Shown in pieces: positions 2,817-23,411 of a DNA stretch of 64,000 bases. The notes under the pieces are model-generated. The model searched no databases and had not been told where the DNA came from. It saw nothing but the letters and a program-made list of their open reading frames with translations. Source of the DNA: Desulfuromonas sp. TF (GTDB lineage Bacteria > Desulfobacterota > Desulfuromonadia > Desulfuromonadales > ATBO01). The translations under genes were made by a program, and so were the position numbers. How positions within the stretch are numbered: position 1 is the stretch's first letter; the number at the start of each line of letters is the position of its first letter. The stretch is from assembly GCF_000472285.1 (NCBI RefSeq), contig NZ_KI421413.1:100087-164086 (forward strand), in the 5' to 3' direction.

Positions 2817-3824
2817 ATGCCCAGCGGTATTTCGCATATGCTTCTCAGCCGATATCTTCCGGTGGAGGCCGATAGGCCTTACAGCCATAAAATGAGGGCG
2901 AATACCCGTTATTTTCAGATCGGAAGTATCGCCCCCGATCTCCCTTACGCCAGTGTAACCGACAACGATTTCCTCGACTCTGACAGCGAGCTCGCCAACA
3001 TATTTCATTTCACATCACCGGGGCAGGCACCGAGCCTGGCACCCAACCGCCTGCCACTGATGGGTTTAGAGCAGGTGAAGACGTTTATTGAAAACGGAGC
3101 GGACAAGAGAGGGTGTGACGCCTTCTTCTGGTTCCTGGTTGGCTATGCCTCCCATCTTATTGCTGACGGCGTCTGCCATCCCTATGTCATGGATAAAGTT
3201 GGTCGCTACGAAGGATCAAACAAGGCGGTGCACCGAGCGCTCGAAATGGGGATTGACGTTCTTCTTTTCAAGCATTTCACCGGTGATAGAGGCCATGCCA
3301 TAGAGGCCGGTTACGCCAGAATGGACACCTACATCAAGGGCTTCAACGACTTGAAATATTCCAACATGGTGTGCAACCACTTTGCGAATCTGATTGAATC
3401 GATCTATGGTAGGGGTGTTCAACCGGAAGAGATTGCTGGCTGGGTGGAGGGTATGGCCCGGCTGTTCTGCCTTTCTACCGGCAGGTGGCCGAACTGGTTC
3501 CGGACACTCGATGCCACCCGGCCTTTCGTCTTCAGGGAAATCGCAGATCTGGATGGACAGGAAGATGACTACCTTGCTCTCGAAAGGCCGAGATTCTGGG
3601 ACGAGAATTTCCTTGGAAGGGATCGCATCCACTTTTTTGAGGACTGCTTGCCGCGGTTCAATGAAAAAATGATCGATTTCATGGAGAAGGCTTGGGCCTT
3701 CGTTTATGAATCCGGACCAGGTCTTGGCGAGAACGATCTGCCAGCGTATAGCCTAGATACCGGCCGGCCCGTAGCCAATTTCGATGACATCGCTATAATT
3801 CCATCCCAATGGGAGGTCGCATGA
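2817..3824 (+). CDS. Zinc-dependent phospholipase C-like domain protein
   Basis: This 335-residue protein resembles the zinc-dependent phospholipase C / S1-P1 nuclease-like family. Supporting motifs are the early histidine in MPSGISHMLL, GSIAPDLPY near residue 37, and GYASHLIADGVCHPY near 107, in which H, D and H are the expected zinc ligands. There is no signal peptide, so the protein should be cytoplasmic, unlike secreted bacterial PLCs. Its substrate cannot be inferred. The start has a strong AAGGAG ribosome-binding site (2803-2808). The stop overlaps the start of the next gene (ATGA), so it is translationally coupled to the lipoprotein. Composition is intermediate between the AT-rich genes before it and the GC-rich hsdM after it. 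Confidence 0.7.
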   Translation: MPSGISHMLLSRYLPVEADRPYSHKMRANTRYFQIGSIAPDLPYASVTDNDFLDSDSELANIFHFTSPGQAPSLAPNRLPLMGLEQVKTFIENGADKRGCDAFFWFLVGYASHLIADGVCHPYVMDKVGRYEGSNKAVHRALEMGIDVLLFKHFTGDRGHAIEAGYARMDTYIKGFNDLKYSNMVCNHFANLIESIYGRGVQPEEIAGWVEGMARLFCLSTGRWPNWFRTLDATRPFVFREIADLDGQEDDYLALERPRFWDENFLGRDRIHFFEDCLPRFNEKMIDFMEKAWAFVYESGPGLGENDLPAYSLDTGRPVANFDDIAIIPSQWEVA

Positions 3825-4282: not shown

Positions 4283-4918
4283 ATGACCCCACATGATCGC
4301 TACGATACCTCGGGTCTCCCAGAAGACCAGTATGAGCCGGAATCCAACGGTACAGTGCTGAAAAACCTCCTCGGTATCACGACACGTGAAAAGATGGAAA
4401 CTGCCGAGACAGCCGAGCTTTGGCTGGCCGAGGAGCAATTGCTTGGAGAGATCGAACAGGATCAGTCGTTTACCGCCCCAGACATTTGTGGCATGCACCG
4501 GCTCTGGCTTGGGCGCATCTACTCATGGGCTGGTGAATACCGAAAGGTAAATCTCAGCAAGGATGGGTTCACCTTTGCCATGGCCCACACGATTCCGGCA
4601 TTAATGGCGGAGTTCGAGCGCGATCAGCTGGCGCGCTACACCCCCTGTCACTTCAGTGAGCGTGAAACTATTGCCCAAGCCTTGGCCGAGGTGCATGTGG
4701 AGCTGATGCTGATCCATCCGTTTCGTGAGGGGAACGGTCGGCTTGGCCGCCTGCTGGCGACCCTGATGGGGCTTCAGGCAGGTCTTCCGCTTCTTGATTT
4801 CAGCGAAATGGCGGGGCGGCGCAAGGAAGAGTATTTTGCCGCGGTGCGGGCGGGCCTAGATCGGGAATATCGCCCTATGACGCACCTCTTTGTCGACGTT
4901 ATCGAGCTTTCTTCTTGA
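4283..4918 (+). CDS. Fic-family AMP-transferase (toxin-like)
   Basis: A 211-residue Fic protein. The catalytic loop HPFREGNGRLGR begins at residue 144 and matches the HPFx(D/E)GNGRxxR signature, including the catalytic His, the Mg-binding acidic residue and the anion-hole Gly/Arg. Fic enzymes transfer AMP from ATP to target hydroxyls; stand-alone Fic toxins of this size often modify DNA gyrase/topoisomerase IV or other proteins, but the target here is unknown. I see no internal inhibitory (S/T)xxxE(G/N) motif, so it should need a separate (class I) antitoxin. The small gene on the opposite strand (4899-5093) carries that motif. Ribosome-binding site AAAGG at 4269-4273. Last gene of the PLC/lipoprotein/Fic operon. 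Confidence 0.9.
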   Translation: MTPHDRYDTSGLPEDQYEPESNGTVLKNLLGITTREKMETAETAELWLAEEQLLGEIEQDQSFTAPDICGMHRLWLGRIYSWAGEYRKVNLSKDGFTFAMAHTIPALMAEFERDQLARYTPCHFSERETIAQALAEVHVELMLIHPFREGNGRLGRLLATLMGLQAGLPLLDFSEMAGRRKEEYFAAVRAGLDREYRPMTHLFVDVIELSS

Positions 4919-5159: not shown

Positions 5160-5406
5160 ATGACCCCCGCCGCAATCGTAAGCAAACTCTGGAACTTCTG
5201 CAACGTCCTCCGCGATGACGGCATGAGCTACGGCGACTACGTCGAGCAGCTCACCTATCTGCTCTTCCTCAAGATGGCCGACGAGCGCACCAAGCCACCC
5301 TACAACCAGCCGAGCAGCGTCCCGGCCGACTACGCCTGGCCGACCCTGGTGAAGAAGGACGGCGACGACCTCTTCGACCATTACCGTCACACCCTCGAAG
5401 CCCTCG
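5160..5406 (+). repeat. hsdM 5'-end direct repeat, copy 2 (intact gene)
   Basis: Partner of 2046-2292. Homologous exchange between the copies would delete 3114 bp (two-TM protein, PLC-like, lipoprotein, fic and antitoxin) and rejoin the dGTPase to a complete hsdM with the copy 1 ribosome-binding site. Confidence 0.9.
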
Positions 5407-6662
5407 GCAACGAAAAGGGTCTGCTCGGGCTGATCTTTAACAAGTCCCAGAACAAGTTCCAGGACCCCGCCAAGCTGCGCCGCCTGATCGTCGACCTCAT
5501 CGACAAGGAGAACTGGTCGGTGATGAGCGCCGACGTCAAGGGGGACGCCTACGAGGGGCTGCTGGAGAAGAACGCCCAGGACACCAAGAGCGGGGCAGGG
5601 CAGTACTTCACCCCCCGGCCGCTGATCCAGGCCATCGTAGACGCCGTCGCCCCCAGGCCCGGCGACTCCATCTGCGACCCGGCCTGCGGCACCGGCGGCT
5701 TTCTGCTGGCGGCCCACGACTACATCGTCGAGAACCATCCCCACATGACCAAGGCGGAGCTCAAGGCGCTCAAGGGGGAGACCTTCATGGGGTGCGAGCT
5801 GGTGCAGTCGACGGCCCGGCTCTGCGCCATGAACCTGATGCTCCACGGCATCGCCGGCAACGGGGACGGCACCCGCCTGCCGCTGGTGGTGGGCGACTCC
5901 CTGGCCGGCGACCCCGGCGACCGCTACGAGATCGTCCTCACCAATCCCCCCTTCGGCAAGAAAAGCTCGACCACCATCGTCGGAGAGGACGGGAAGGTCG
6001 GCCGCGAGACCGAGATCATCGAGCGAGACGACTTCTGGGCTACCACCTCGAACAAGCAGCTCAACTTCCTGCAGCACGTCAAGACCCTGCTCAAACAGCA
6101 CGGCCGCGCCGCCGTGGTCGTCCCCGACAACGTGCTCTTCGAAGGCGGGGCAGGGGAGACGATCCGCCGCAAGCTCCTGCATGAATGCGAAGTGCACACC
6201 CTCCTGCGCCTCCCCACCGGCCTCTTCTACGCCCAAGGCGTTAAGGCGAACGTCCTCTTCTTCGACCGCAAGCCCGCCAGCGAGACTCCCTGGACGAAGA
6301 AGCTCTGGATCTACGACCTGCGCACCAACCAGCACTTCACCCTCAAGACCAACTCCCTCAAGCGCGGCGATCTCGATGAGTTCGTAAAGCTCTACAATCC
6401 CGCCAAGCGGCAGCAACGCACCGCCACCTGGAGCGAGAAAAATCCCGACGGCCGCTGGCGCTGTTTCGACTTCGAGGAAATCGTCGCCCGCGACAAGGCC
6501 AGCCTTGACATCTTCTGGCTGCGGGACGAATCGCTGGAGGATTCGGACAACCTGCCCGACCCGGGTGTGATCGCTGCCGAAATTGTGCAGGATCTGGAGG
6601 CGGCGCTTGAGCAGTTCCGGTTGATTGCGGAGGATTTGGGGGAGGAAGTCACAGAGGGTTAA
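5160..6662 (+). CDS. hsdM: Type I restriction-modification DNA methyltransferase subunit HsdM
   Basis: A 500-residue, apparently complete N6-adenine methyltransferase subunit. It has an N-terminal HsdM helical domain (about 1-130), SAM-binding motif I DPACGTGGFL near residue 173 and catalytic motif IV NPPF near 261. It methylates adenine in the sequence chosen by HsdS. No hsdS or hsdR follows; the next gene, 68 bp on, is unrelated. The only hsdS in view is the one at 1-788, 4.4 kb upstream, with the dGTPase and the Fic cassette between. Its first 247 bp are duplicated at 2046-2292. GC content is high, like the hsdS end. Whether HsdR lies left of the window cannot be seen. Confidence 0.95.
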   Translation: MTPAAIVSKLWNFCNVLRDDGMSYGDYVEQLTYLLFLKMADERTKPPYNQPSSVPADYAWPTLVKKDGDDLFDHYRHTLEALGNEKGLLGLIFNKSQNKFQDPAKLRRLIVDLIDKENWSVMSADVKGDAYEGLLEKNAQDTKSGAGQYFTPRPLIQAIVDAVAPRPGDSICDPACGTGGFLLAAHDYIVENHPHMTKAELKALKGETFMGCELVQSTARLCAMNLMLHGIAGNGDGTRLPLVVGDSLAGDPGDRYEIVLTNPPFGKKSSTTIVGEDGKVGRETEIIERDDFWATTSNKQLNFLQHVKTLLKQHGRAAVVVPDNVLFEGGAGETIRRKLLHECEVHTLLRLPTGLFYAQGVKANVLFFDRKPASETPWTKKLWIYDLRTNQHFTLKTNSLKRGDLDEFVKLYNPAKRQQRTATWSEKNPDGRWRCFDFEEIVARDKASLDIFWLRDESLEDSDNLPDPGVIAAEIVQDLEAALEQFRLIAEDLGEEVTEG

Positions 6663-6730: not shown

Positions 6731-7423
6731 ATGGATGTTCAAAAAGATCGATACTACGCTGCCCTGACGGGGGATGCCATTCAGTCTTCAAGACTGGGGT
6801 CTGAGGCCCGAAGTAGGCTTCACGACGCCATCCTGAATACCGGCGAGGAACTGACCGACGCCTTTCCAGGTCTCGTTATCGGTGGGATCAATATCTTTAG
6901 AGGCGACAGTGTTCAATTTCTGCTTAGCGAGCCGGCCAAATCCTTGCGGGCTGCATTGTTCTTTAGAGCTGCATTAAAGGCATCTACGGGCTCCCTTAAG
7001 GTTGATATGCGCATCGCCATTGGGATCGGCACCATAGATTTTATGCCTGAGACTTCAAAGGGGGGCGCCGATGGTGAAGCCTACCGGCTTTCTGGGCCCG
7101 CTCTCGATAGTATGGGGACAAAGCAGACTTTATGCCTGGCATTGCCTCAAAGCTTTGGCTCACATCATAACCTTGAGGCGCTGAAAACGACCGTTGTGTT
7201 GGTGGGAACCCTGGCTGATCGATGGACGGAAAAGCAGGCCCTTGCTGTCAAAGGCGCCCTGCTTGGGTATACCCAGGATGAAACCCGCCAGATCTGGCCA
7301 TCTACCGTTACCCGACAAGCCGTCGCCAAAAGCCTTGATGGGGCAGGATGGTTTGCTTTGGAGCGAGCTCTGCAGTCTTTCGAGAATCTTGAGTTTCATC
7401 TCCACATTAGACCACAACCCTAA
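6731..7423 (+). CDS. SatD-family-like protein
   Basis: 230 residues. The layout resembles the SatD family: an opening strand with YYAALTGDAIQSSRL, a central GDSVQFLL, then MRIAIGIGTID and DGEAYRLSGPALD. It also loosely recalls a nucleotide-cyclase-type fold. SatD-family proteins have no settled biochemical function; the founding member belongs to a Streptococcus acid-tolerance operon. Start ATG 6731 has GAGGAG at 6718-6723; a TTG 5 codons earlier is less likely. The last codons and the TAA form the first of three hairpins that separate it from the DUF3307 gene. I recall SatD-like and DUF3307 genes being neighbours in other bacteria, which would support a functional pair; this was not checked. 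Confidence 0.55.
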   Translation: MDVQKDRYYAALTGDAIQSSRLGSEARSRLHDAILNTGEELTDAFPGLVIGGINIFRGDSVQFLLSEPAKSLRAALFFRAALKASTGSLKVDMRIAIGIGTIDFMPETSKGGADGEAYRLSGPALDSMGTKQTLCLALPQSFGSHHNLEALKTTVVLVGTLADRWTEKQALAVKGALLGYTQDETRQIWPSTVTRQAVAKSLDGAGWFALERALQSFENLEFHLHIRPQP

Positions 7424-7488
7424 GGGTTGCTTGCGATGAATGCAACCCTTCGAGGTTGCGCAAAGGAATGGCAACCCCATAAGGTTGC
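7415..7488. repeat. Three regularly spaced GCAACC/GGTTGC hairpins
   Basis: Inverted repeats at 7415-7429 (CAACCC-TAA-GGGTTG), 7442-7459 (GCAACC, 6-nt loop, GGTTGC) and 7471-7488 (GCAACC, 6-nt loop, GGTTGC). Their starts are about 28-29 bp apart and the 11-12 bp spacers are unrelated. The TAA of the first loop is the stop codon of the SatD-like gene. None is followed by a T-run, so these are not classical terminators; they could be protein-binding palindromes, mRNA-processing structures or a small palindromic repeat family. Confidence 0.85.
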
Positions 7489-7548
7489 ATAGTTCACGCG
7501 CGCTCAATTTAAAAAATGCACTTTTGACGATGAAAACCCGGAGGAACG

Positions 7549-8268
7549 GTGGAAGTTGCAAACCTGGACATCGTTTTTGGCTTGATTACAGCTCATTTAT
7601 TGGGAGATTTCTTTTTTCAATCCGACCTGATGGTCCGGAACAAAAGAGACGCCGGCGTTCTTATGATCCATGCGTCGCTGGTCACGGCAGTTAGCTACCT
7701 GATATGCGGAATCTGGATTAGTTGGCAAATTTTAGTGGGTGTTCTCATCACTCATATGGTTATTGATGGAATTAAGACCCTATCAGGGAAGGATGGCCCC
7801 AAAGCCTTCCTTCTGGACCAAGGTGCTCATCTTGCTGCTCTTACGGCCATCGGGGTTTATTGGATTCCCGGTGAGACCGTGCCGTATTGGCAATCAATTT
7901 TCCCCTTTTATACCAAGGGACTATTGCTAGTTACTGGTGCGATACTTTGTGTTCGGGTTGGAGGCTTCTGGGTTGGAAAGACGGTCGCTCCTTTTCAGAA
8001 GGCTCTTGATAATACATCTGAGGGTTTGCCGAATGCCGGCCGACTGATAGGTCAACTGGAACGTGCGTTGATTTATCTTCTTGTGTTGGCAGGCGAGCCC
8101 CAGGGAGTTGGCTTCCTGGTTACAGCCAAGTCCATTTTACGGTTTGGTGAGATCAAGGAACCGGGACAACAAAAGGAGGCCGAATATATCATTATTGGAA
8201 CGCTCATGAGCTTTAGCTGGGCGCTCTTTATCGCATTCGCAACCAAGGCCCTTCTTGCTTTTCTCTAG
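7549..8268 (+). CDS. DUF3307 integral membrane protein
   Basis: 239 residues. The N-terminal half matches DUF3307: FGLITAHLLGDFFFQSD, MIHASLVTAVSY and THMVIDGIKT, with conserved His/Asp residues in membrane-associated helices. Further hydrophobic segments lie near residues 100-115, 120-140 and at the C-terminus (FSWALFIAFATKALLAF). Translation starts at GTG 7549 behind GGAGG at 7540-7544. Function is unknown. It follows the SatD-like gene by 125 bp on the same strand and may be its membrane partner. Confidence 0.75.
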   Translation: MEVANLDIVFGLITAHLLGDFFFQSDLMVRNKRDAGVLMIHASLVTAVSYLICGIWISWQILVGVLITHMVIDGIKTLSGKDGPKAFLLDQGAHLAALTAIGVYWIPGETVPYWQSIFPFYTKGLLLVTGAILCVRVGGFWVGKTVAPFQKALDNTSEGLPNAGRLIGQLERALIYLLVLAGEPQGVGFLVTAKSILRFGEIKEPGQQKEAEYIIIGTLMSFSWALFIAFATKALLAFL

Positions 8269-22028: not shown

Positions 22029-22277
22029 CCGGAAGTCCTTTGTAGAAGAAGGGAGATGCTGGTCGGAAAGCCCGTTTACGGACGGAAAGTAGCATAGTGC
22101 GCGACAATCGTCAAGAATGGCTCTTTGCCGACCGGCTCTCGTGGAACTTCACGGTTGCGCCTGCCCTGGCGAAGGGATACATTAAGGCAGGCTCGTTTCC
22201 GGCCCGGAAACACGCTTTTGCCCACCCGATGTTTCCGGATACGTACCAGCCAGCTATCGAACTATTCGGAGGGAATA

Positions 22278-23411
22278 ATGGAACGACCCGACCTGGCCCC
22301 CTACGCCGCCCGCAGTGCCGCAAGCCGGGGCCGCCGGCACAGGGAAGAGTTCAAGGACTCCAGACCGGCCTTCGAGAGGGACCGCGACCGCATCATCCAC
22401 TGCGCCGCATTTCGCCGACTGGAATACAAGACCCAGGTCTTCGTCAACCACGAGGGAGATTATTTCCGCACACGCCTGACTCATTCCCTGGAAGTGGCGC
22501 AGATTGCCCGCGGAATCGCCCGGCGTCTGCGGCTGAACGAGGATCTGGTCGAGGCGTTGGCCCTGGCGCATGACCTGGGTCACACCCCTTTCGGTCACAC
22601 CGGGGAGGATGTCCTCAATCGACTGATGTCGGCTTTCGGCGGCTTCGAACACAACCGTCAGTCCCTGCGCATCGTCGAGGTTCTGGAGAACCGGTATCCT
22701 GGATTCAGCGGCCTCAATCTCAGTTGGGAAACCCGGGAGGGGATCATCAAGCACTCATCCGATTACGACCGACCCGACGCCGATTGGGCAGTCGAATACG
22801 AAGCGGCCCAACGACCCACGCTGGAGGCCCAGATCATTGATCTGGCCGACGAGATCGCCTACAACAATCATGATATCGACGACGGCCTCAAAGCCGGCTA
22901 CATCAACCTGAAGGACCTGGCCGGCCTGGACGTATGGCAGGAGACCTTCCTGAAGGTCGCAAGGAAATATCCAGGCCTCGACGAGGAGCGCCATGTCTGC
23001 CAGACCATCAGCCATCTAATCGGCACCCTGATCGATGATCTGGTGAAGACGACCTCGGAGAACATACTGCAAAAAAGAATCTCTACCCTCGACGATGTCC
23101 GGAGCCAGGCTTCCAGCCTTGTCACCTTCAGCAAGGAAACGGCCCGAAAAAACGGCGAGCTGAAGAGTTTCCTCTACCGGCGGCTGTACCGCCATTACAA
23201 GGTGGAGAGGATGCGGGTCAAGGCCGAGCGATTTCTCACCCTTCTATTCGAGAGCTACACCACCACGCCTTCCCTTCTTCCTTTCGCTTATCAGGAGAAA
23301 TTCGATCTCTTCGGTCGCGAACGGGTCATTTGCGACTATATCGCCGGCATGACCGACCGGTTTGCCCAGGATGAGTATAAGCGGCTTTACGAACCGTTCG
23401 AGCGGGTTTGA
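22278..23411 (+). CDS. dgt: Deoxyguanosinetriphosphate triphosphohydrolase-like protein (housekeeping copy)
   Basis: 377 residues of the type 2 dGTPase group. The signatures are RDRDRIIHCAAFRRLEYKTQVF, RTRLTHSLEVAQIAR (first His), HDLGHTPFGHTGED (HD core) and DLADEIAYNNHDIDDG. ATG 22278 follows GGAGGG (22268-22273); an in-frame extension to 22125 lacks a ribosome-binding site and homology. The enzyme maintains dNTP balance. Composition matches the chromosome, unlike the RM-linked copy at 806-2020. Confidence 0.92.
   Translation: MERPDLAPYAARSAASRGRRHREEFKDSRPAFERDRDRIIHCAAFRRLEYKTQVFVNHEGDYFRTRLTHSLEVAQIARGIARRLRLNEDLVEALALAHDLGHTPFGHTGEDVLNRLMSAFGGFEHNRQSLRIVEVLENRYPGFSGLNLSWETREGIIKHSSDYDRPDADWAVEYEAAQRPTLEAQIIDLADEIAYNNHDIDDGLKAGYINLKDLAGLDVWQETFLKVARKYPGLDEERHVCQTISHLIGTLIDDLVKTTSENILQKRISTLDDVRSQASSLVTFSKETARKNGELKSFLYRRLYRHYKVERMRVKAERFLTLLFESYTTTPSLLPFAYQEKFDLFGRERVICDYIAGMTDRFAQDEYKRLYEPFERV

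Follow-up and report, generated by a model that had tools for sequence, protein, structure and literature searches.

A SatD-like palm-domain protein and a DUF3307-type membrane protein form a conserved two-gene unit associated with a palindrome array

The window analysed here is a 64,000-nucleotide stretch of Desulfuromonas sp. TF (assembly GCF_000472285.1, contig NZ_KI421413.1, positions 100,087 to 164,086 of the forward strand). It contains a gene for a SatD-like protein and, 125 bp downstream on the same strand, a gene for a DUF3307 protein, with three palindromes beginning at the end of the first gene (Table 1). The downstream protein passed the Pfam cut-off for DUF3307 (PF11750; E 3e-16, 60 bits vs 23). 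The upstream protein missed the cut-off for SatD (PF16264; E 1.3e-3, 18.8 bits vs 29) and is hence called SatD-like. Among 77 homologues, 43 matched Pfam SatD at E ≤ 1 (best 1.3e-12), and the equivalent position is taken by genes annotated as SatD family on Agrobacterium pAt and two haloarchaeal plasmids. A sigma-70 promoter scan found no promoter.

Table 1. Positions in the window of the two genes, their domains and key codons, and the palindromes.
Feature	Position	Strand	Remarks
SatD-like gene	6731..7423	+	230 aa from ATG; open reading frame (ORF); Pfam SatD match below threshold; palm and helix-turn-helix (HTH)
Palm (cyclase-type) domain	residues ~9-140 of SatD-like protein		
HTH	residues ~165-218 of SatD-like protein		C-terminal
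Asp15 codon, first putative metal ligand (TGD motif)	6773..6775	+	invariant; aligned with Asp of 3mr7 and Ma1120
Asp59 codon, second putative metal ligand (RGDxxQ motif)	6905..6907	+	invariant; aligned with GD motif of 3mr7 and Ma1120
Arg195-Gln196 codons, putative specificity residues at start of recognition helix	7313..7318	+	two highest z-scores
Palindrome 1	7415..7429	.	CAACCC-TAA-GGGTTG; overlaps satD stop codon; shorter middle than the other two; longer counterpart in locus L023
Palindrome 2	7442..7459	.	GCAACCCTTCGAGGTTGC
Palindrome 3	7471..7488	.	GCAACCCCATAAGGTTGC; starts 29 bp after palindrome 2; 60 bp before DUF3307 start codon
DUF3307 gene	7549..8268	+	239 aa, all-helical, hydrophobic (membrane); ORF, Pfam, AlphaFold2 model, hydropathy
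Pfam DUF3307 region	7573..7869	+	residues 9-107; four long helices; conserved H16, D20, Q24, H41, H69, D73, D90, Q91, H94
Unnamed C-terminal membrane domain	7906..8265	+	residues ~120-239; GxxIGxxER ... KxxxRF ... EYxxxG

The distribution of the pair was examined by scanning GTDB genomes and viral contigs with an alignment of ten DUF3307-type proteins (A3). The best 80 of at least 593 confirmed relatives were kept from the GTDB scan and five loci from the viral scan, and adjacency was assessed with a SatD profile made beforehand from ten proteins. In all 80 of these best-matching genome loci, the DUF3307 gene is immediately preceded by a SatD ORF of the same orientation, and SatD also lies directly upstream in four of the five viral loci and in the 13 of 13 plasmid loci opened. 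The viral exception, L107, in which SatD is absent and the partner is shortened, is probably a decaying copy. No third universal gene was seen at the pair loci. The adjacency is far above chance, and SatD with its membrane partner constitutes a widespread, conserved two-gene unit of bacteria and archaea, as the original prediction of a soluble SatD-like protein paired with a multi-helix membrane protein had proposed for the window. Three other searches returned nothing: a phage collection contained no DUF3307 match, E. coli genomes gave zero matches with two plasmid pairs as queries, and a viral scan with a single SatD protein as the query gave no match.

Because the query was full-length and paired, and only its best matches were kept, the 80 genome loci are biased toward the paired form. 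A fairer test was provided by 297 genomes sampled evenly from the window's phylum, in which a DUF3307-type match occurred in 12 genomes and a SatD match in eight. Five of the 12 DUF3307-type matches included the C-terminal half, and SatD was present in all five of these genomes; the pair was adjacent in four, and in the fifth (G244) both genes lie at contig ends, where adjacency is not visible. The remaining seven genomes carried the N-terminal DUF3307 half only, and a SatD match was found in none of them. These N-terminal-only proteins (L120 and L122-L127, in G059, G208, G252, G036, G135, G077 and G276) appear from their sequences to be a second, separate use of DUF3307. Co-occurrence beyond this genome, which the original prediction had itself named as the check to be made, is thus found, including in 5 of the 297 genomes. 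In three sample genomes with SatD, no partner was found: G134, G169, where SatD is cut at a contig end, and G245, where the match is an 888-aa frame that contains the palm part only. Near the SatD-like gene of G134 (L110), no partner domain and no array were found.

On a tree of SatD proteins, 16 phylum-level groups required 21 changes (minimum 15), as compared with a mean of 33.4 after shuffling, and none of 200 shuffles was as low. Phylum labels are therefore clustered yet mixed on the SatD tree, which by itself does not prove transfer.

The domain composition of the partner was further considered in view of these distributions. The AlphaFold2 model of the DUF3307 protein (predicted local distance difference test score, pLDDT, 94.8) consists of ten helices, of which the C-terminal part contributes a long helix, two short helices and a long final helix. 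In an alignment of 80 of 85 partner proteins with the window protein (A5), E171, R172, K194, R198 and E212 were invariant in 81 of 81 full-length partners. The gene following SatD encodes the C-terminal domain alone in G285, G239 and Agrobacterium pAt, and likewise at the contig end in G244. These shorter partners measure 90 aa as annotated in Agrobacterium and 128-154 aa as open frames, and all four retain G164, I167, G168, E171, R172, K194, R198, E212, Y213 and G217. Divergence of the SatD palm correlated with that of the C-terminal domain at r 0.70 and with that of the N-terminal part at 0.55. Since the five genomes with a C-terminal match, among the 12 with a DUF3307-type match, are exactly those with SatD, these data indicate that the true partner of SatD is a C-terminal domain of about 120 aa, which lies outside Pfam DUF3307. 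PF11750 covers the N-terminal ~100 residues of the partner and omits this domain. The pairing itself thus stands as originally predicted, whereas the DUF3307 region that gave the partner its name is not the part linked to SatD. The conserved His, Asp and Gln residues of the N-terminal bundle may form a buried metal site, and R172, K194 and R198 may bind phosphate. A Foldseek search of the DUF3307 model against the PDB gave zero matches at E ≤ 0.001, and the best VIA match (Z 7.1) was within the noise of helical proteins. Kinship of DUF3307 with the membrane hydrolase YdjM was considered and is not claimed; a profile comparison gave a probability of 6.8% and E 0.0053, with DUF3307 H41 and H69-D73 falling near YdjM motifs.

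For the SatD-like protein, an alignment (A4) was made of the window protein and 76 of 84 SatD proteins, 77 in all; five cut or partial proteins were omitted, together with L072, L082 and L098, judged by eye to be close relatives of retained rows. At E ≤ 0.001 the A4 profile matched only class III cyclases among PDB sequences, namely 3mr7 and four Ma1120 constructs (6.1e-5 to 2.6e-4), and both metal-binding Asp residues were in register with the cyclases in the two alignments (3mr7 and Ma1120). D15 and D59 were identical in 77 of 77 members and Q62 in 76 of 77. The AlphaFold2 model (pLDDT 94.6) gave the guanylyl cyclase Cya2 as the top Foldseek match (4.4e-5), followed by Cmr2 at rank 3 and the uridylate cyclases 8jsz and 7r65 at ranks 5 and 14, respectively. 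In VIA, the model aligned with Z 12.2 (3.1 Å over 148 residues), and cyclases, GGDEF domains, GTP cyclohydrolase III and Cmr2 all scored at Z 11-12. Judged from the model, membership of the palm superfamily is firm; the exact branch is not, because GGDEF and Cmr2 palms score almost as high as cyclases. The invariant metal ligands would imply nucleotide binding and probably chemistry. The C-terminus of SatD matched sigma-70 region 4 and other HTH families (in 22 and 21 of the 77 members, respectively, at E ≤ 1).

All three palindromes of the window have CAAC/GTTG arms, and the pattern GCAACCYNNNNRGGTTGC occurs within the 4.4-Mb genome at palindromes 2 and 3 only. Three palindromes are found in the equivalent place in L023, and two with one decayed copy in L024. 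Across loci, the array units are palindromes of 18-22 bp, spaced at 28-29 bp and present in two to six copies. A first screen detected repeated same-arm palindromes in 14 of the 25 gaps measuring at least 60 bp, where shuffling predicted 0.1; of 81 regions preceding satD, 34 were positive and 5.4 were expected. When any period from 20 to 45 bp was allowed, the 85 loci, which supplied 121 test regions, gave 48 positives, with periods of 28 (16 regions), 29 (30), 30 (1) and 43 bp (1). The controls, 596 regions preceding other genes of these loci, gave four, with periods of 30 (1) and 35 bp (3). A relaxed test, which allowed one mismatch and a period of 27-30 bp, a window chosen after the earlier screens had been seen, detected an array in 71 of 85 loci and in 9 of 586 controls; at least three copies were present in 38 of the loci and in none of the controls. 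The loci offered somewhat more sequence (300 bp upstream of satD plus the intergenic gap) than the controls (330 bp upstream each). Among 124 intervals, the centre spacing was 29 bp in 82 and 28 bp in 40. At the loci of N-terminal-only proteins, a chain was found in 1 of 14 (seven genomes, each represented twice).

The position of the array depends on the arrangement of the two genes. Where they lie less than 40 bp apart, the array was upstream of satD in 41 of 49 loci, between the genes in two and absent in six; where they are separated by at least 40 bp, it was between them in 26 of 36, upstream of satD in two and absent in eight. The array precedes the membrane gene in either arrangement.

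Two other natures of the palindromes were considered and rejected. A genome-wide repeat does not agree with the confinement of the exact pattern to this locus. As for RNA hairpins, 184 palindrome copies were compared at offsets 3-10, and G-T mismatches (68) were not markedly more frequent than A-C mismatches (50), so that there is no marked strand asymmetry indicative of pairing in one RNA strand; low mismatch in the arms is partly by construction, as detection demanded near-complementary arms. Given this absence of a marked RNA-pairing sign and the covariation with SatD described below, the palindromes are best explained as DNA sites for a dimer. For the mismatch, covariation and later analyses the centres of the window's three palindromes were set by hand, and five odd-centre arrays were excluded from the mismatch, covariation and partial Mantel analyses.

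Covariation was calculated between the variable SatD columns (residues 5-218) and seven half-site positions over the 60 loci that are represented in A4 and have an array with an even centre. Of all pairs, residue 195/base 2 and residue 196/base 3 reached the two highest z-scores. The counts were Q-A 41, R-G 12, R-T 2, K-A 2, A-T 2 and H-G 1 for the former pair, and Q-C 31, Q-T 1, S/P/A/N/V-T 24, R-G 3 and N-G 1 for the latter; adjacent residues at the start of the recognition helix vary together with adjacent bases of the half-site. Both associations survived thinning to less than 40% palm identity (n = 17; p 1.6e-4 for Q195-A, 0.002 for R195-G and 4e-4 for Q196-C). On a tree built from the palm only, residue and base changed on the same branch five times for each pair (expected 0.7 and 0.3), and half-site similarity remained correlated with recognition-helix similarity after palm similarity had been removed (partial Mantel r 0.41, p 0.0002).

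The predictive value of these pairs was assessed in and out of sample. The rule for residue 196 (Q to C, R to G, others to T) described 31 of 32, 3 of 3 and 24 of 25 loci in sample. Out of sample, it described 8 of 10 loci as called, L129 and L131 fitting only after a one-base register shift; the ten include the close relatives L016 and L017, and L022, whose array is unclear, was omitted. The rule joining Arg195 to G described 12 of 14 loci in sample, and the base found with Arg195 in L129 is G as called and T after the one-base shift. We regard the residue 196 rule alone as robust on these sequence comparisons, the 195 rule being weaker. Because the half-sites covary with recognition-helix residues 195 and 196, it is very likely that SatD binds its own array and thereby controls the membrane gene.

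The pair, the fold, the array and its recognition by SatD are supported by these comparative data. The array and the cyclase-type fold, which do not figure in the original prediction, are the more telling of these findings. Building on them, we propose that SatD and its membrane partner form a self-regulated nucleotide-signalling module, a reading to which we assign a probability of about 0.5. SatD would be a DNA-binding dimer that joins a class III cyclase-type palm, with both metal Asp residues kept, to a C-terminal HTH. The HTH dimers would set expression by occupying the palindromes that precede the membrane gene or, where the genes overlap, the operon as a whole. The palm would bind, and probably cyclise or otherwise convert, a nucleotide, whose state or product may inform the partner, or SatD itself, of attack or stress. 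The core of the partner would be its C-terminal domain, read from the model as two long membrane helices flanking a short helical pair with the invariant R172/K194/R198 cluster, and the N-terminal DUF3307 domain would be an optional extra. Loss or gain of the signal may lead the partner to alter the membrane, as in Panoptes or Pycsar. Catalysis, the identity of the signal, the sign of regulation, a membrane-damaging effector and a role in defence are what we infer in this scheme.

An extension of the module, which we regard as improbable although worth stating, concerns the array itself. Cyclase active sites form between paired palms. Since the period of the array is fixed, SatD dimers could align as a helical filament, possibly bringing palms together. 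A cyclase-fold SatD forming such a filament on its own operator array might couple nucleotide chemistry to transcription and so represent a new class of immune or stress switch; the array would both control the effector and scaffold or gate the palms, and a small membrane effector would be set free once either the signal or the array-bound form was lost.

Several results weigh against the module as proposed. An array was lacking in 14 of 85 loci by the relaxed test, and among 17 further SatD loci, including plasmid and archaeal ones, a chain was found in 11, some of them weak and at least that of L022 poor in appearance, and none in six. Fifteen of the 25 top covarying pairs lie outside the HTH, as common ancestry would produce, and out of sample Arg195 went with G at L018 and with T at L014 and L015. 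Class III cyclases carry a transition-state Asn/Arg pair in the motif GxxVNxAxR; in the corresponding SatD segment, GxAFxxSG[x], aligned by eye with this motif, the Arg column is variable, with Pro in the window, and catalysis by the palm is therefore not certain. Neither window protein was matched by any PADLOC model, and the 15 models matched by A4 members at E ≤ 0.1 were weak, of CARF/HTH and other types (best 2.6e-5, CARF3); A5 members matched no model at this threshold. In NCBIfam, the SatD-like protein was unmatched and the DUF3307 protein had one sub-threshold match, neither being named. A likeness of the C-terminal domain to the pore domains of TRPML2, TRPV and NavAb (Z 5-7) was below the helical noise of the aligner and is not claimed. 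The Pfam families of 98 near neighbours were mostly ordinary among the 25 of 89 listed. The same two downstream genes are kept at eight Flavobacteriaceae loci, indicating vertical inheritance there.

Of the competing explanations, a toxin-antitoxin-like pair comes nearest, although we consider it rather unlikely. The membrane protein would be a toxin, and SatD an antitoxin that represses it via the array and neutralises it directly, with the palm serving as a fold or a modifying enzyme and not as a messenger synthase. The regulator gene comes first, the genes overlap or lie close, palindromes stand ahead of the membrane gene or operon, small plasmids of 3.77 and 4.4 kb have the pair as their chief cargo, and toxin-antitoxin genes are close by on some plasmids. 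However, the invariance of both palm metal Asp residues in 77 of 77 members exceeds the needs of a pure protein-protein antitoxin, and the array often follows satD (in the window and 25 other loci), so that satD is not downstream of it. Somewhat less probable still is a housekeeping stress regulator, in which SatD would sense a nucleoside triphosphate or cyclic nucleotide and switch a membrane protein that serves the homeostasis of ions, lipids or the envelope, with no role in defence. The mostly ordinary chromosomal neighbours among the listed families and the conserved downstream genes at eight Flavobacteriaceae loci would agree with this, as would the stress link of the S. mutans SatCDE/Ffh cluster, the homology of whose SatD rests on the Pfam name only; passages of one paper (PMC12077213) name this cluster among genes triggered by hyperosmolarity and report that it is upregulated with fructose and has been implicated in acid tolerance. 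Such a regulator is at odds with the patchy occurrence of SatD with the C-terminal domain (5 of 297 phylum genomes) and with carriage by plasmids, one of them mobilizable and of 3.77 kb, and by viral contigs.

A chance neighbourhood beside a restriction-modification locus, with the palindromes belonging to a repeat family or forming RNA hairpins, seems to us very improbable. A loose pattern allowing up to two mismatches does reach two matches in 19 of 100 window shuffles, and the slight excess of G-T over A-C in the arms leaves room for an RNA role. These points are outweighed by the adjacency conserved in all of the best 80 relatives, the restriction of the exact palindrome pattern to this place in the genome, the 28-29-bp period that is fixed across phyla while the sequence is locus-specific, and the covariation of half-sites with SatD recognition-helix residues.

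Regarding genomic context, the neighbours named in the original prediction were confirmed. A type I methyltransferase gene (5160-6662; PADLOC match 8.1e-200) lies upstream of the SatD-like gene and is preceded by a Fic-family gene (4283-4918; match to the PADLOC candidate PDC-S04, 4e-76). Elsewhere in the window are a zinc-dependent phospholipase C family gene close to the Fic gene (2817-3824) and two HD-domain dGTPase-like genes (698-2020 and 22125-23411; PADLOC dGTPase, 6.7e-54 and 8.8e-109). Across loci, 98 near proteins (of 234) and 98 far proteins (of 109 drawn from 264) were tallied; PADLOC gave 101 families for the near vs 8 for the far proteins, a tally that does not show enrichment in defence islands and cannot be converted to a count of proteins because 21 of the 25 listed near families are type I specificity models belonging to two proteins each.

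Further contexts were recorded on mobile elements. On a 3.77-kb mobilizable E. coli plasmid (L022, 1792-3481), the main cargo is the pair, accompanied by Rop, MobA and a single short hypothetical gene; the pair is also carried by a 4.4-kb Klebsiella plasmid (L131, 362-1937), for which six Klebsiella records matched; the partners on these small plasmids are longer, at 332 aa. On a Sphingomonas insulae plasmid (L015), the pair and genes annotated as Pycsar effector, cyclase and TIR protein lie within 9 kb. The pair is near nucleotidyltransferase/HEPN and HipA genes in Agrobacterium pAt, and near AAA ATPase, helicase and integrase genes in Enterobacter. In viral contigs L104-L106, it lies upstream of genes that resemble lysozyme and large terminase, as read from sequence. 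The link to defence, through plasmids, prophage-like contigs and one Pycsar neighbour, is anecdotal.

By analogy, the module appears closest in logic to Panoptes, without a sequence match. In passages of the two Panoptes papers (PMC12657230, PMC12657218), a Cas10-like enzyme constitutively makes c-di-AMP, which restrains an effector with two transmembrane (TM) segments; so described, Panoptes (mCpol/OptS with 2TM-beta/OptE) resembles the pair in that a palm enzyme of Cas10 type and a small membrane protein are encoded together in one two-gene operon with toxin-antitoxin-like logic. The name SatD is absent from the main text of both papers. SatD differs in adding an HTH and an array, and the Panoptes effector has a soluble beta-rich nucleotide-binding domain, whereas the model of the DUF3307 partner is all helical, without a beta-domain. 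Pycsar consists of a cyclase (PycC) and an effector, which in some systems is a TM protein. The SatD palm fold matches the uridylate cyclases 8jsz and 7r65, but SatD carries its own HTH and array and shares 13% identity with either in structural alignments. PADLOC contains Pycsar models, and no match named Pycsar was obtained for the window proteins or for members of A4 or A5. Type II and type VII toxin-antitoxin systems have regulator-first operons and palindromic sites, as does the pair; unlike them, SatD has a cyclase-type palm with invariant metal ligands, and its array comprises two to six palindromes at 28-29-bp spacing.

A literature search returned no functional description of the SatD family and no account of its fold, the C-terminal domain or the array. 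Among the papers searched, DUF3307 is named in one on a jumbo phage of Ralstonia, and the SatD family and domain, PF11750 and PF16264 appear in one on the in-silico annotation of Fusobacterium proteins. With respect to Pfam SatD, which the window protein resembles by a weak match, the cyclase-type fold, the HTH and the array are new content.

Taken together, two function-unknown families gain one shared, testable mechanism. The array provides a distinctive genomic signature with a readable residue-base code; new members should therefore be findable by their array, and operators should be partly predictable from two residues. If the palm makes a messenger, the module would represent a further lineage of palm enzyme and membrane effector beside Pycsar, the cyclic-oligonucleotide-based antiphage signalling system (CBASS) and Panoptes, and such a lineage, if true, would span bacteria and archaea and be carried on very small plasmids and viral contigs.

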